Part shown: piece by piece, positions 28,944 to 35,085 of the stretch
How the letters are laid out: every line of letters starts with the position of its first letter
Position numbering within the stretch: the first letter of the stretch is position 1
Source of the DNA: an uncultured Moraxellaceae bacterium
Lineage (GTDB): Bacteria; Pseudomonadota; Gammaproteobacteria; Pseudomonadales; Moraxellaceae
Assembly (NCBI GenBank): GCA_913057715.1
Contig: CAJXOR010000004.1
Coordinates: 1 to 60,946 of the forward strand
Reading direction: 5' to 3'
DNA: 60,946 nt
Notes under the pieces: generated by a model
Databases searched by the model: none
Told to the model about the DNA's origin: nothing
What the model saw: the letters and a program-made list of their open reading frames with translations, nothing else
Position numbers and translations under genes: made by a program

Positions 28944-29525
28944 TTAGGGCTGAACTACGCTGCGAATATACTGCTTCTCTGTCTCGTTGGTCTGACTCCA
29001 GATCAGCTCAAAACTCTTAAGCAAATCCTCTCGAGCTGCTGTGCTTTGCCCTCCAGAGTCACCCAATGATATTTCTGAGGTGACTTGATTCACTAGGTTG
29101 CCTAGTGCTGCCACGATACTGGTGTTGTTACTGTCAGCAGTTGTGGTCTGAATCACAGTGCCATTTTTAATCACACTGATACTGGCATTTTCAGCAAATT
29201 CCTTAGCAGCATCAAGCTTCATCGGATTTTGGGTTGGTTTGAGCTCAAATCGATCGGTAGGCTCATCAACAGTGATCAGCGCCACCATCGACTTTGAACG
29301 AACAAACTCATGTTCATCAGCACTAGGCTCAAACAGCCGGTCGTACCGGTAAGCGATCGAGTGCACGCCAGGCTCAAGGGTAAATTGCCGCGTCTCACTT
29401 AAGACAGAGGTTTGAGCTGAGCGCGTATCGATGTCCGTGATCAACACCGAAGGAGCGGCCACTAAAGTGGCCGCCTGTATTGAGCTTGCTGCAAATACAG
29501 CAACGAACGATAAGTACTTTATCAA
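28944..29525 (-). CDS. DUF2057 (YccT-like) exported protein
   Basis: A 193-residue protein with a signal peptide ending IQA-A. The start of the mature protein (LVAAPSVLITDID...RQFTLEPGVHSIAYRYDRLFE) resembles the DUF2057/YccT family of uncharacterised periplasmic proteins. The TTG start is supported by AAGGG upstream and by the signal peptide. It begins three bases after the upstream CSLREA-protein gene in the same direction, so it is likely to be co-transcribed with that pair. Function unknown. Confidence 0.7.
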   Translation of the reverse strand: MIKYLSFVAVFAASSIQAATLVAAPSVLITDIDTRSAQTSVLSETRQFTLEPGVHSIAYRYDRLFEPSADEHEFVRSKSMVALITVDEPTDRFELKPTQNPMKLDAAKEFAENASISVIKNGTVIQTTTADSNNTSIVAALGNLVNQVTSEISLGDSGGQSTAAREDLLKSFELIWSQTNETEKQYIRSVVQP

Positions 29526-29528
29526 GGC

Positions 29529-32168
29529 TTAGCCCTTTTTGATCTGATGTCTGGAGCGCCTAGTAAATACCAAAAGTGACAGAAATCCAAGTACCCAAGG
29601 AGCCATATAACCACCGCCAGAGAACACTGAGGTTGCATCCACTAGATTGCTGTTGCCTTTACCAGCAGTGATGGTCACTTCGGCAGGTTCAGAAGCTACT
29701 GAGCCGACAACTTGCCCGTTAGTCAGTGCGCCGCCGTCATAAACGACATACTGGAAGCTGTCGGTAAAGTTAGAAAGCAAGTTATCGCGAACATACCGAA
29801 CATAGGGCGGATAACAGATTGCATCTCCTAACTGGTTAGCGTTTGCAACGGGGCAATCGATACCGGCACTGATGGTGTTAAATGACGGGTCGCTTGAGAA
29901 CTCTAATCGTCCAAGTTCAGGCTCCTGTGTTACCTGCACAAATGCTTCTACACCGGTTGGTGAGCGGTAAAACTCAGGTATCTGAAGCTCTTGGTCAACC
30001 AAAATTGGGTTGTCTTGATCATCGAGCTGAGGATTACCGTTAGCGTCCAGTAGAGGAGTTTTTAATCTGGGTCTGACTGGACCATCACCATCGTCGTTGA
30101 TTGAACCAAGCAGGCTGAAGTTTACCGCAACCTCATCTCCTTTAGTCTTGATGGTCAAATCCTCTGCGTTAGGTGCGATATTGATAAACTCAAAAGCGAT
30201 ATAACTTGTGGTGCTGATACTATCGTCACTTTTCAAGGTAATGGTGTATTCACAGAAATCAAACTCGCCAGAGGGAGTCGTTGATCCGTCGTTGCGATAC
30301 GCAATCACATCAGCAAGATTTTCATCATATTTACAAGTCAAATTATCATTCACGTCCAGTTCAGACGTATCCAGTTCGCCAGCCTCAGTGAAAGTCAATT
30401 CAGGGCCACTTCCGACGACTCTGACTTCGATGTCATAATTCTCAGCGCCACTGACCACATAGTTCCCATTTTCATAGGCAATCAAACGTGGCAGCAGCTG
30501 GATATCTGGTAGATCGCCCTCTGCTCCTTCATATGGAACATCGTTGTCAAACGCCAGAGCAAAAGTCGCTCGGTAATTCTCATTTAGAAGTTCCGTGTAA
30601 GCTCGCAAGAAAGCTTGATCGAAATTTTGTGCATTGGTTACAATTTCTGGACCTTGGGGCTCATCATCAAAGTCGTTTGGATCTCTATCCAAGCTATCCT
30701 CTAAACGTTGAACAATTGTCGTGAAGTTATCGTTACTGATTGGACCATCCGGCACGGCGATCAGATTGGCTCGGTTAATTGCCCCTTTATAACAATAGCC
30801 ACCTGGAGGAGTGATAAATCTTGCTACTGGCAGATTTCTAAATAGGCCCCTTTGATCAACACCAGTACAGCTGGCGTTTGATTCATTTTCATTCAGGATG
30901 GGGGATTGAGGCTCGAGTCTTTTAGGGAGGTACCCTAAAGAGGCCAGACCATAATCCTTAAGTTCCTTTTCAAAAAAGTCTGTAAATACTGAATTAACGA
31001 CATAGGAATTTGAGGTGTTAGCTGTGGGGGTGGTAACACCCTTATCATCAGTGCTGCTCAGTTGAAAAACCTGACATGGATTAGCATTGCCTGTGTCCGA
31101 TTCGCCAAGCAAAAAGCTGTTAGCTACCGCTAGGGTTCGCTGTGCGTTTATGTTATTTCCAACGTAATCACAATCAAGAACTGAGTTATAAGCCAACACA
31201 CTGTTCTCAACATCTATGATGCCGATGTCGCCATATGAAATACCTACGGTATTTTGACTGAGCGTAACGTAGTCCACTGAAAGTCTCGGCGGTACAAGCC
31301 TATCACCATCTGAAAATTCACCGACTTCTTCAAAATCTATTGCTGGTCCGCCTGTGTTTTCAGCAATGGTAGTGTTTTCGATAGTTGCATTGGGCGTACC
31401 GCAAAGTTTAATTGCACTTGGGCCGTTATTTTGGACAATGCTAGACTGATCAATCAAGATGACACGATTGTCTGTGGTTAGGTTATCAAAACAGCTCTCA
31501 CCTATCGCTGAACCCGATTCTGTAGCTTCGTTACCAGACAATTCAGTTCGGGTTAATTCAATCGAACTCTCACTACCCTCTAAGAAAAAAGCACCGCCTA
31601 CTCGAGCACTACCACCGGTGACTTTAGAGTCATTTAACGTCAGCTCGCCGCCAACATTGATGGCGCCGCCTTGATCAACAAAGCCCGACCCACGAAGCTC
31701 TATGCCGGTGAACTCAAGCCCGACACGATCCTGACTAGAATCAAAGATGCTTTGGTTGTTAGCCGCACGTATGATCGGACGGTTGATGATAATCTTGCCT
31801 GGTAAGCCGGTAACGGAGTTGCGCTGTGAATAATCCAACTGTTGATCTGAATCTAAACGAACTGATGAAACTCGGCTGTTGAGTTGTTTATTTAAAACGA
31901 TGGTCGAGTTCAGCTGGTAGGTCTCACCCGATTTAAGATTGATGGTATCAATCACACCGACACGCGTATCGCCAATTCGAGCACAGCCACCGATATTGGT
32001 TTGCCGTAATGCTGTCTTGACTGCCTCTCGAATCGAACAGGCAGATGAGTTGACCACATCCTCATCTGTTGTGGTCGTTACCTCAATCGTAGCAGCATGC
32101 GCACTGACCGAAAAGATCAAAGCAGCACCGAGAAAACTCAGAGTAGAAAAACTTGTTAACAATTTCAT
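29529..32168 (-). CDS. CSLREA-domain exported protein with GlyGly-CTERM-like tail (copy 1)
   Basis: An 879-residue secreted or surface protein. A signal peptide ends AHA-A (~residue 26); the CSLREA domain follows as IEVTTTTDEDV...CSIREAV (44-50). Residues ~90-400 read like a parallel beta-helix (GSGFVDQGGAINVGGELTLNDSKVTGG and similar turns), then come acidic beta-rich regions to ~850. The C-terminus is Gly-Gly-Gly, a hydrophobic helix and a basic tail (RRSRHQIKK), as in GlyGly-CTERM proteins processed by rhombosortase. AAGGAC before the ATG at 32168 supports this start. The next gene upstream is a paralogue of the same layout. Adhesin or matrix role is inference. Confidence 0.8.
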   Translation of the reverse strand: MKLLTSFSTLSFLGAALIFSVSAHAATIEVTTTTDEDVVNSSACSIREAVKTALRQTNIGGCARIGDTRVGVIDTINLKSGETYQLNSTIVLNKQLNSRVSSVRLDSDQQLDYSQRNSVTGLPGKIIINRPIIRAANNQSIFDSSQDRVGLEFTGIELRGSGFVDQGGAINVGGELTLNDSKVTGGSARVGGAFFLEGSESSIELTRTELSGNEATESGSAIGESCFDNLTTDNRVILIDQSSIVQNNGPSAIKLCGTPNATIENTTIAENTGGPAIDFEEVGEFSDGDRLVPPRLSVDYVTLSQNTVGISYGDIGIIDVENSVLAYNSVLDCDYVGNNINAQRTLAVANSFLLGESDTGNANPCQVFQLSSTDDKGVTTPTANTSNSYVVNSVFTDFFEKELKDYGLASLGYLPKRLEPQSPILNENESNASCTGVDQRGLFRNLPVARFITPPGGYCYKGAINRANLIAVPDGPISNDNFTTIVQRLEDSLDRDPNDFDDEPQGPEIVTNAQNFDQAFLRAYTELLNENYRATFALAFDNDVPYEGAEGDLPDIQLLPRLIAYENGNYVVSGAENYDIEVRVVGSGPELTFTEAGELDTSELDVNDNLTCKYDENLADVIAYRNDGSTTPSGEFDFCEYTITLKSDDSISTTSYIAFEFINIAPNAEDLTIKTKGDEVAVNFSLLGSINDDGDGPVRPRLKTPLLDANGNPQLDDQDNPILVDQELQIPEFYRSPTGVEAFVQVTQEPELGRLEFSSDPSFNTISAGIDCPVANANQLGDAICYPPYVRYVRDNLLSNFTDSFQYVVYDGGALTNGQVVGSVASEPAEVTITAGKGNSNLVDATSVFSGGGYMAPWVLGFLSLLVFTRRSRHQIKKG

Positions 32169-32191
32169 CGACACGTCCTTGTGTATGATTC

Positions 32192-34168
32192 TCAACGCAG
32201 CTTGACAGCTAGGCGACGACCCAACCCGATCAGAGTTAAGGCAAATAACCAAACCGGTGCATTTGAGCCACCGCCATCCCCAAAGATGCCAATAGTATCT
32301 GAATCAATTCCAGACTTGGGGTCTTGCAAGATTTGCGTGGTTATCGTCAAAAACTTTTCGTTATTTGCTCCTGAGAAGCGTGAAGTGGTGGTTACCACTC
32401 GGTATTGAAAGGTATCAGTTCCTTGATAGTTGCTACCCGGAGTGTATTGAATCAAACCGTTAGCCAACACTTCAACACTGCCTTTTTGCGGAGCGTTTCC
32501 ACGAACAAATCTCAGGCAGCCGTCGGTAAAACCGCTGGACATATTATCGCCTGTTGGCAGCGTCTCTTGATCGGTTTGCGCTAAAGGCAACATGAGATCA
32601 GCACAAAACTCTGCAGGTACCAGCTGCCCATCGCCAATTGCAGTAGCCAGATTTAACGTAGCGAGCTCACCAAAGAAGATATCCTCATTTACCGAGTTGT
32701 TAAGCGCTCCTTCGCCAAACACGACCAACTCAAAAGATCCGATATCGCATATTGGACGGGCTTGCCCTCTTATGTCATCAGGTTGGCATGACAAAGCTAG
32801 AGGGCTTTGGGTGCCGGCACTCAGTCCGCTATTGACTATCGATGATTCATCGAGTGATTCATATGTTAAAAACAATCGTGGTTTTATTGTCGGTAAATAC
32901 TCGCCTTCAATACGGATTAGAGGACAAAACAGACCGATCTCACTTCCGATTTGCGGAATACGGCAGATCTCGACCATCTCGCCGTTGATCTCAACGGTTT
33001 GAGCGGCTATCAGCCCATCCAGCTGATCATCAGTTAAACCTATGTCATTTAGATTTTCGGATCGAGCTGTGTTTGACGCATCAAAACCACCCGATAGATT
33101 GTCGAAAACCAAATGATTTAAGTAAATCTTATCTTGGGTAGTCGCGCTCAGATCATATTCTGCATTGCCAAGTAGAACCGAGTTGGCCAGGCGGCTGATG
33201 ATAGAGATCCTATTGCCTTCGTTGGCGATGGCTTGAGCTGCATCAAATTTAACGCCGCGGTCATTGCTGATAACGGTCAAATTGTTAGCTGAAATAGATG
33301 GATTGAGTAAGACGGCGCCGGTGCGATTGTCAAAAAATAATACATTTCTCAGAAGGCTAGCATCTAATCCCGGTGAAATCGTCACTGGCTCTGCGTTAGC
33401 ATCAGGCTCTGCGGGGTAACTTGGAATTGAGGGAGTCTCAAGATAGATGCTGAAGCCATCAGCTGCTGGATCAATTTGACCATTATTGACGATACTGACC
33501 TGGCTGATATTTAAACCAAATGACTCAGAATAAACCGCCGCACCTTGATCAGCATAATTGCGCTCAAAAAGCACTTGAGACACTTCAAGTACTGCATCTA
33601 AAGATGAGTTATAAACAGCCCCTCCTTCTTTGGCAACTCCACCACTCAGGGTCACGCGATCCAGCGATAGCAACTCTCGGTTAAAGATCAATCCGCCTTG
33701 CTCTTGAGCCGTAAATCCATCTGCAACATCTGACTCTGCGGCCACACCCAAGATGCGAAGCCCGCTTAAAATAACAACAGAAGGCTCTGGAAAGGCTGAG
33801 CCGTCGTCAATTAAAAATGCGCGTCCCATTGCCTTGATGATGGGCTGTTCATCGGCTGGTTGATCACGGACACCAAAAACATTGTCTGCCTGAATCGTCA
33901 TGCCAGCTTTGATTAGCAGCGCACTGTTCAGTGTGTAAGTTTCGGTGTTGTCCAAAGTGATAACGGCGTTAGCCTCATCGTCTTCAGGCTTACAGTCACC
34001 CTCAGCATCCCTCTGATCAGCATTGATATAGTTGACTGCTTCTCGCAAAGAACACTCGCCGTCAGAGGCGATTCGATCGATTGGCGTGGTGACAATGATG
34101 TCAGCGGCAGCGAAGGCAAACGTACTGCACAAACACAATGCCATCGCTGAAGCTATACGGTAAACCAT
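32192..34168 (-). CDS. CSLREA-domain exported protein with GlyGly-CTERM-like tail (copy 2)
   Basis: A 658-residue paralogue of the downstream gene. Signal peptide ending AFA-A (~residue 21); CSLREA motif ECSLREAVNYINA at 38-50; beta-helix-like repeats to ~350 (SLDRVTLSGGVAKEGGAVYNSSLDAVLEVSQVLF-type turns); a late beta-sandwich segment YQGTDTFQYRVV. It ends GGGSNAPVWLFALTLIGLGRRLAVKLR-like: Gly/Ser patch, helix, basic tail. AGGAG precedes the ATG. The two genes are 23 bases apart and share one promoter region. Confidence 0.8.
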   Translation of the reverse strand: MVYRIASAMALCLCSTFAFAAADIIVTTPIDRIASDGECSLREAVNYINADQRDAEGDCKPEDDEANAVITLDNTETYTLNSALLIKAGMTIQADNVFGVRDQPADEQPIIKAMGRAFLIDDGSAFPEPSVVILSGLRILGVAAESDVADGFTAQEQGGLIFNRELLSLDRVTLSGGVAKEGGAVYNSSLDAVLEVSQVLFERNYADQGAAVYSESFGLNISQVSIVNNGQIDPAADGFSIYLETPSIPSYPAEPDANAEPVTISPGLDASLLRNVLFFDNRTGAVLLNPSISANNLTVISNDRGVKFDAAQAIANEGNRISIISRLANSVLLGNAEYDLSATTQDKIYLNHLVFDNLSGGFDASNTARSENLNDIGLTDDQLDGLIAAQTVEINGEMVEICRIPQIGSEIGLFCPLIRIEGEYLPTIKPRLFLTYESLDESSIVNSGLSAGTQSPLALSCQPDDIRGQARPICDIGSFELVVFGEGALNNSVNEDIFFGELATLNLATAIGDGQLVPAEFCADLMLPLAQTDQETLPTGDNMSSGFTDGCLRFVRGNAPQKGSVEVLANGLIQYTPGSNYQGTDTFQYRVVTTTSRFSGANNEKFLTITTQILQDPKSGIDSDTIGIFGDGGGSNAPVWLFALTLIGLGRRLAVKLR

Positions 34169-34320: not shown

Positions 34321-35082
34321 TCAGTGGGATTGGGCAATCACCAGTTCGATCTGCTTGATCTGATCAGCTGAGAGCTTCTTAAACGGTTTACCCGCCAGTA
34401 TTAGTTCGACCTCTAAAATCATACGGGTCATGCCTCCACTGGTTATAGGACCTTCTTGGGCGATCAGGCGACAAAGCCTATTTGAGAATTTCAAATGTCT
34501 GAGCTTTGCCGTCTGCTCTATAAAATCCATCCTTTCTTCCCATGTGCTCATCACCGGAAGCTCAAACCTTGCTCCCTGCATCAATCTTGATCGAAGATCC
34601 TGTATGTGACAGTTAAACTCAGCATCTTGTGAGCTTAGCAGCAGTTTTTGCTCTAAGGATTTAGCACGGTTAATGAAGTCAAATAACAAACTTTCAGCAG
34701 GCGTTTGGAGTATTTGGTCAATGTCATCTAAAGCGATGAAATCAAACATACTGATGTCGGCTAGCAAGTTGGAGGGATCATCGGCTTGTAATTGAAGTAC
34801 GCAGGCACTCAATCCGCTGTGTTTAGCCGCCCTTACCGCTGCGTAGCACAAATGAGACTTTCCTGTCTGATCTGCTCCAAAACAAACCAACTGATCCAAC
34901 TGCCCGTTGATCAGCTGCTCCACAAAACTGATCACGCCACTTTGAGCGGTGTGGTTGAAGTCAGCCAAACTTGCGCTGGCAGGCATACGCACGTTGAGCT
35001 GATATTGCTCCGCATCAAGAGGCCGAGCCAGTCTAGGCTCACTACTCAGATGTTCGCCAAGTTTTTTATCAACAGGACTCAT
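34321..35082 (-). CDS. hda: DnaA regulatory inactivator Hda
   Basis: AAA+ protein homologous to DnaA that, with the sliding clamp, stimulates hydrolysis of DnaA-bound ATP after initiation. The N-terminal QYQLNVRMPASASLADF contains the QL(N)V clamp-binding-like motif; Walker A is degenerate as GADQTGKSHL, Walker B is ALDDID, and sensor motifs lie in RSRLMQGARFELP. The ATG at 35082 follows the perM stop by three bases. perM-hda adjacency opposite purM is conserved in gammaproteobacteria. Confidence 0.9.
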   Translation of the reverse strand: MSPVDKKLGEHLSSEPRLARPLDAEQYQLNVRMPASASLADFNHTAQSGVISFVEQLINGQLDQLVCFGADQTGKSHLCYAAVRAAKHSGLSACVLQLQADDPSNLLADISMFDFIALDDIDQILQTPAESLLFDFINRAKSLEQKLLLSSQDAEFNCHIQDLRSRLMQGARFELPVMSTWEERMDFIEQTAKLRHLKFSNRLCRLIAQEGPITSGGMTRMILEVELILAGKPFKKLSADQIKQIELVIAQSH

Positions 35083-35085
35083 CAA

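Follow-up and report, generated by a model that had tools for sequence, protein, structure and literature searches.

The systems closest to the locus considered here have been described in Vibrio and Acinetobacter. In Vibrio, retention of VesB at the cell surface needs rhombosortase, and the C-terminal glycine of VesB bears a mass consistent with glycerophosphoethanolamine (PMC6219818); the GlyGly-CTERM region acts there as an independent targeting motif (PMC13393428). For Acinetobacter, Haft and Varghese listed genomes with two GlyGly-CTERM proteins each (PMC3237569), and a neighboring pair of A. nosocomialis M2, termed GlyGly-CTERM and rhombosortase in that work, depends on the type II secretion system (T2SS) (PMC4713064). 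A. baumannii UPAB1 has a CSLREA protein among its T2SS effectors (PMC9245377), the structure of rhombotarget A (RbtA) has been published (PMC12643943), and in the vesicles of a LOS-deficient strain rhombotarget A and the product of the adjacent locus tag drop together (PMC11395390). Judging by their adjacent locus tags, M215_02250/02255 of A. nosocomialis M2 probably represent RbtA and its paralogue, here called P880, and the protein that falls together with rhombotarget A in vesicles is presumably also P880. A third described relative is CsgI of Escherichia coli, a periplasmic protein that inhibits or delays CsgA polymerization in vitro (PMC10002515).

The locus described here was found in a 60,946-nucleotide stretch of DNA from an uncultured Moraxellaceae bacterium, referred to below as the window, and is a locus of the known Acinetobacter kind in a distant relative. 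It shares with the Acinetobacter pair (A. baumannii rbtA, 9CDU/9CDV) the two-gene tandem, the site after perM/hda, the domain layout and a rhombosortase in the genome. It differs in that the proteins are about 25–34% identical and that a DUF2057 gene follows the pair in the window, whereas this gene lies elsewhere in Acinetobacter. The VesB/RssP system of Vibrio cholerae has the signal peptide, the tail of Gly-rich motif, helix and basic residues, the rhombosortase and the T2SS in common with the window, but VesB is a serine protease, whereas the window proteins are beta-helix proteins in which no enzyme domain was identified. CsgI (YccT) of E. coli belongs to the same Pfam family as the DUF2057 protein of the window and is likewise exported; however, the two are 11% identical, and E. 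coli has no rhombosortase over the cut-off and no RbtA. An earlier note on this DNA had held that no known system combines these three genes. The tandem itself is not new, because a T2SS-dependent GlyGly-CTERM pair and the RbtA structure were already reported in Acinetobacter (PMC4713064, PMC3237569, PMC12643943), but no literature joining DUF2057-type genes to RbtA was found among open-licence papers.

Locus layout and the RbtA–P880 pair

Three adjacent genes, located on the minus strand at 34168-28944, encode RbtA, P880 and the DUF2057 protein (Table 1). The earlier note had described two large paralogues and a small exported DUF2057 protein three bases further on, and both the three open reading frames and the gap are as described, the DUF2057 start at 29525 being 3 bases past the P880 stop. 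Signal peptides had been proposed as well, and by sequence reading they end in A-x-A in all three proteins, without a lipobox cysteine. Promoter and terminator scans at the locus gave results no better than shuffles. At the start of the window, bases 1-47 look like an untrimmed Illumina Nextera adapter, with an exact transposase end at 29-47 and the read-2 adapter before it. Open reading frames entering these bases are artifacts, and other contig ends in the assembly translate to similar adapter peptides.

Table 1. Features of the rbtA locus in the window, its upstream anchor, and the fused reading frames of genus g3
Feature	Position	Strand	Evidence or remark
RbtA (rhombotarget A), 658 aa	32192..34168	-	TIGR04212 305.6 bits; phmmer to 9CDU/9CDV
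RbtA signal peptide, about 21 aa, ...AFA/A	34106..34168	-	sequence reading
CSLREA motif of RbtA	34037..34054	-	literal CSLREA; TIGR04214 20.6 bits, below cut-off 25
RbtA tail GDGGGS-hydrophobic-RRLAVKLR, GlyGly-CTERM-like	32195..32281	-	alignment to relatives' tails
P880, RbtA paralogue, 879 aa, ATG 32168	29529..32168	-	TIGR04214 match; orthologues beside RbtA; tree
P880 beta-helix body (approximate)	30732..32090	-	AlphaFold model and Foldseek
P880 tail SGGGY-hydrophobic-RRSRHQIKKG, GlyGly-CTERM-like	29532..29621	-	tail alignment; AlphaFold C-terminal helix 858-879
DUF2057 protein, 193 aa, TTG start	28944..29525	-	PF09829 54.6 bits; signal peptide 29472-29525
Hda-like protein	34321..35085	-	syntenic anchor upstream of rbtA, 152-bp gap; outside the unit
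Fused rbtA–P880 frame, g3	L066:3091-7620
Fused rbtA–P880 frame, g3	L067:3907-8361
Fused rbtA–P880 frame, g3	L069:7009-11469

RbtA exceeds the TIGR04212 cut-off of 295 bits over its whole length (residues 8-649 against profile positions 7-602 of 605), and a phmmer search of the PDB matches its body to the crystal structure 9CDU/9CDV (E 5.9e-29). The CSLREA domain, which had been claimed for both large proteins, is present in RbtA as the literal motif with a score below the cut-off of the CSLREA model TIGR04214. In P880 the motif reads CSIREA and the same model is passed with 26.1 bits against 25. P880 is best read from the ATG at 32168, which has AAGGA upstream; a 907-residue version from the TTG at 32252 would overlap RbtA and is less likely. 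The computations on P880 used a start at 32171, and thus one extra N-terminal residue. Its match to TIGR04212 is partial and reaches 42 bits; P880 is therefore an RbtA paralogue and not RbtA itself.

The AlphaFold model of P880 (mean pLDDT 74) ends in a helix, and its best Foldseek matches in the PDB are 9cdu/9cdv (E 4.8e-14, target TM 0.66), followed by weaker cadherin-like ones. P880 is thus predicted to share the beta-helix fold of RbtA, and the beta-helix bodies suggested earlier for the two proteins are supported by a sequence match in one case and by a structural model in the other.

The family of the window genome is Moraxellaceae, whose named members include Acinetobacter (g15), Agitococcus (g5) and Fluviicoccus (g13), the window genus being g1. 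In every locus examined, RbtA and P880 lie side by side or are fused; where the contig also includes perM and hda, these precede the pair, in the conserved order perM-hda-rbtA-P880. The type strain of Acinetobacter baylyi (L120) is among the carriers of the pair. The unfused genes mostly overlap by 4 nt or are separated by gaps of less than 15 nt; in L059 and L062, P880 was recovered by profile search. Such an arrangement is kept across genera far beyond chance. One disrupted case is L140 (Acinetobacter ursingii DSM 16037), where an opposite-strand frame of 320 aa, possibly an insertion sequence, splits the rbtA frame and leaves the paralogue intact. In a tree of the N-terminal parts the RbtA and P880 sides split with support of 98/91, and the genus order is broadly repeated on each side. 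Because of this split and the parallel order, the two proteins appear to derive from one old duplication, and a local duplication of RbtA in the window genome was rejected.

DUF2057 as a frequent neighbor

The DUF2057 protein exceeds the PF09829 gathering score of 24.2 bits over profile positions 1-131 of 192. Its AlphaFold model has a pLDDT of 84, and a PDB fold search with this model gave no match at E <= 0.001. Comparison with E. coli CsgI/YccT yielded a profile probability of 98.4% (E 4e-15) over 171 columns. In a tree of DUF2057 the window copy has a long branch.

In g1, g5, g8, g12, g13 and g14 the gene comes directly after P880 in the same orientation; the measured distance, which varies with the start chosen, runs from -98 to 231 nt, and protein identities are near 25%. 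One isolate with all three genes is Agitococcus lubricus DSM 5822 (L112). In Acinetobacter and g10 the gene occupies another place in the genome, and it was not found in g3, g4 and g6, which keep the RbtA–P880 pair. The order perM-hda-DUF2057 was seen in one genome each of g2, g7, g9 and g11, genera without the pair. Across the family genomes, DUF2057 and RbtA presence (29/8/26/10) show no association (Fisher p=0.6), so that the co-occurrence which the earlier note had proposed to look for did not appear. The same note had regarded the lack of a rhombosortase and a DUF2057 gene unlinked to such genes in relatives as findings against its reading; neither applies, since a rhombosortase is present and the DUF2057 gene directly follows the pair in six genera. 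As DUF2057 does not track RbtA and sits behind hda in four genera without it, it is a conserved and frequent neighbor, not an obligate partner, and the pair itself is the unit.

The simplest history starts from an ancestral perM-hda-rbtA-P880-DUF2057 order, with the pair and the rhombosortase lost in some lineages and DUF2057 moved in others; alternatively, the pair may have been inserted between hda and DUF2057. One reading, for which the chances are about even, refines the preferred explanation: DUF2057 would be an ancestral neighbor of hda, the pair would have been inserted or kept between the two, and the linkage would be functionally meaningless for the pair. The gene order of the genera without the pair, the missing association of presence and the DUF2057 tree, which follows the genera, point in this direction. 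The tight same-strand packing in g1, g5 and g13, with short gaps or overlaps, points the other way; it suggests co-translation, and therefore at least shared expression.

It is improbable, on the other hand, that the three genes form one dedicated unit, with DUF2057 serving the RbtA pair as its specific periplasmic chaperone or assembly factor. Such a role would fit the position behind P880 in the six genera listed above and the studied relative CsgI, by which the polymerization of a beta-rich secreted protein is delayed in vitro (PMC10002515). It agrees poorly with a DUF2057 presence that is independent of RbtA, with the gene standing directly behind hda in g2, g7, g9 and g11, and with its other location or apparent absence in genera that keep the pair. 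The role of DUF2057 is speculative, being drawn from the distant homology to CsgI and from the gene order. A periplasmic homologue of CsgI, it most likely has an envelope role of its own and perhaps keeps exported beta-rich proteins soluble; in many genera it is probably transcribed together with the pair, which would not require it.

Two further observations concern the DUF2057 family. A lipobox-like cysteine is present at the end of the signal peptide in L058-L065 (g14) and in L085, L086, L089 and L091, a set which includes order-level relatives, and is absent from the window copy. The location of the protein may therefore differ among lineages, with soluble and lipoprotein forms in one family. 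In L084 (5140-6416), two tandem DUF2057 copies stand away from the rbtA locus; this is a g12 genome whose rbtA pair has no downstream copy.

Tails, rhombosortase and type II secretion

The C-termini of RbtA and P880 each consist of a Gly-rich motif, a hydrophobic stretch and basic residues. They align with those of 10 relatives, two Gly columns and one Arg column being invariant, and the TIGR04212 match of RbtA, ending at profile position 602, runs into the tail. The curated GlyGly-CTERM model TIGR03501, a C-terminal model of 22 positions, finds nothing above its cut-off of 15.5 bits in RbtA or P880; the orthologues that it does report from relatives have scores of 14.3-18.3 bits, around this value. 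Since these orthologous tails align with the window tails, the latter are treated as GlyGly-CTERM-like, with the reservation that TIGR03501 is not passed. The three-part ending proposed in the earlier note is thus present in both proteins, but the curated model does not recognize it. A profile built from 12 family tails found no third tail in the window genome; as both window tails are part of that profile, the absence of a third one is its informative part.

One rhombosortase over the cut-off is encoded in the window genome (C14:2052-2483, TIGR03902 96.7 vs 84 bits), and by sequence reading it has GLSGVLHG and, later, AHLDG. Two more rhomboids are weaker matches. The rhombosortase-like gene at C21:20215-20676 was rejected as the processing enzyme, as it reaches 55 of 84 bits and matches a general rhomboid Pfam family. 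The type II secretin GspD is located at C2:8498-10342 (522.7 vs 351 bits), adjoined by a weak GspC match (21.4 bits, cut-off 27). The genome search for rhombosortase and type II secretion genes, suggested in the earlier note, therefore found a rhombosortase and a secretin. RbtA, DUF2057 and the rhombosortase over the cut-off each occur in one copy.

Within the family, the presence of RbtA follows that of rhombosortase with almost no exceptions. The 73 family genomes were counted by hand from the RbtA and rhombosortase searches: 34 have both, 3 RbtA only, 1 rhombosortase only and 35 neither, so that the two agree in 69/73 (Fisher 4e-16, a value that indicates only direction, as the genomes are related). 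Counted by genus, the association is 10/11 vs 0/5 (p=0.0014). G014 and G047, two genomes of the Acinetobacter group without RbtA, are also without a rhombosortase over the cut-off. In G007, G017 and G029, RbtA or the fusion is present and a rhombosortase over the cut-off was not found, owing either to draft gaps or to another processing enzyme; in G003 the rhombosortase is present and RbtA was not detected. That RbtA and P880 are ordinary membrane-anchored proteins, with tails that are plain anchors and undergo no rhombosortase processing, is improbable, for the missing TIGR03501 matches of the window tails and the three RbtA-bearing genomes without detected rhombosortase are outweighed by this strong co-occurrence, by orthologous tails that meet or graze TIGR03501 and by the T2SS-dependent release of Acinetobacter members (PMC4713064).

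The hypothesis of processing by rhombosortase finds good support in gene content and co-occurrence. The analysis establishes which genes are present, how they are related by homology and paralogy, their synteny and co-occurrence, and a predicted fold. Cleavage, lipid anchoring and T2SS export are carried over from Vibrio VesB and from Acinetobacter secretomes, and by analogy would proceed as follows. Sec would export RbtA and P880, and their C-terminal helix would keep them in the inner membrane. The single rhombosortase would then cut after the Gly-rich motif, and a lipid-derived anchor would probably be added to the C-terminus so exposed. Finally, the type II system would move both proteins to the cell surface, where they may act as a pair of beta-helix/Ig-like proteins. 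It is likely that the Moraxellaceae rhombotarget locus works in this manner, as a Sec-exported, rhombosortase-cut and T2SS-surfaced beta-helix pair, with DUF2057 as a neighbor that is not required. The surface unit processed by rhombosortase, as the earlier note had conceived it, accordingly keeps its enzyme, its secretin and its co-occurrence, and loses DUF2057 as a member.

The fused form of genus g3 and the meaning of the pair

In g3, rbtA and the paralogue form a single reading frame of 1,484-1,509 aa in 3/3 genomes, and the three proteins are 64-85% identical among themselves. The fusion begins with the RbtA half, to which the RbtA profile matches to the end, and continues with a tail, then a further hydrophobic stretch that resembles a signal sequence, and lastly an entire P880 half, which has a tail too. 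In L069 the part from the first helix to the mature second half contains no in-frame ATG, GTG or TTG, so that P880 is unlikely to be initiated separately. Such a structure suggests that the product may be a polyprotein, which rhombosortase and signal peptidase could cut in two. Rhombosortase was found in 1/3 g3 genomes, the other two being drafts that are 91-94% complete. A fused form in which the internal tail and the second signal sequence are retained is new, and no rhombosortase polyprotein was found in the literature among open-licence papers.

The fusion is also an argument that RbtA and P880 act together. A more far-reaching reading, which is unlikely to hold as a whole, would make RbtA and P880 an obligate surface pair produced in equal amounts, the g3 fusion a true polyprotein split into two anchored proteins, and DUF2057 their periplasmic anti-aggregation factor where it is co-transcribed. 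The g3 fusion is the most interesting lead; it offers a natural substrate for asking whether an internal tail is cut by rhombosortase.

DUF2057 is a widespread family of little known function, for which the locus offers candidate clients, yet it also shows that the two need not go together. In Acinetobacter, RbtA is exposed at the surface, its structure has been solved and binders have been designed for it; no report of its function was found. Its description as one member of a pair that arose, as the tree indicates, from one old duplication, whose members are almost never apart and are tied to rhombosortase, makes a two-component surface structure a concrete, testable hypothesis.
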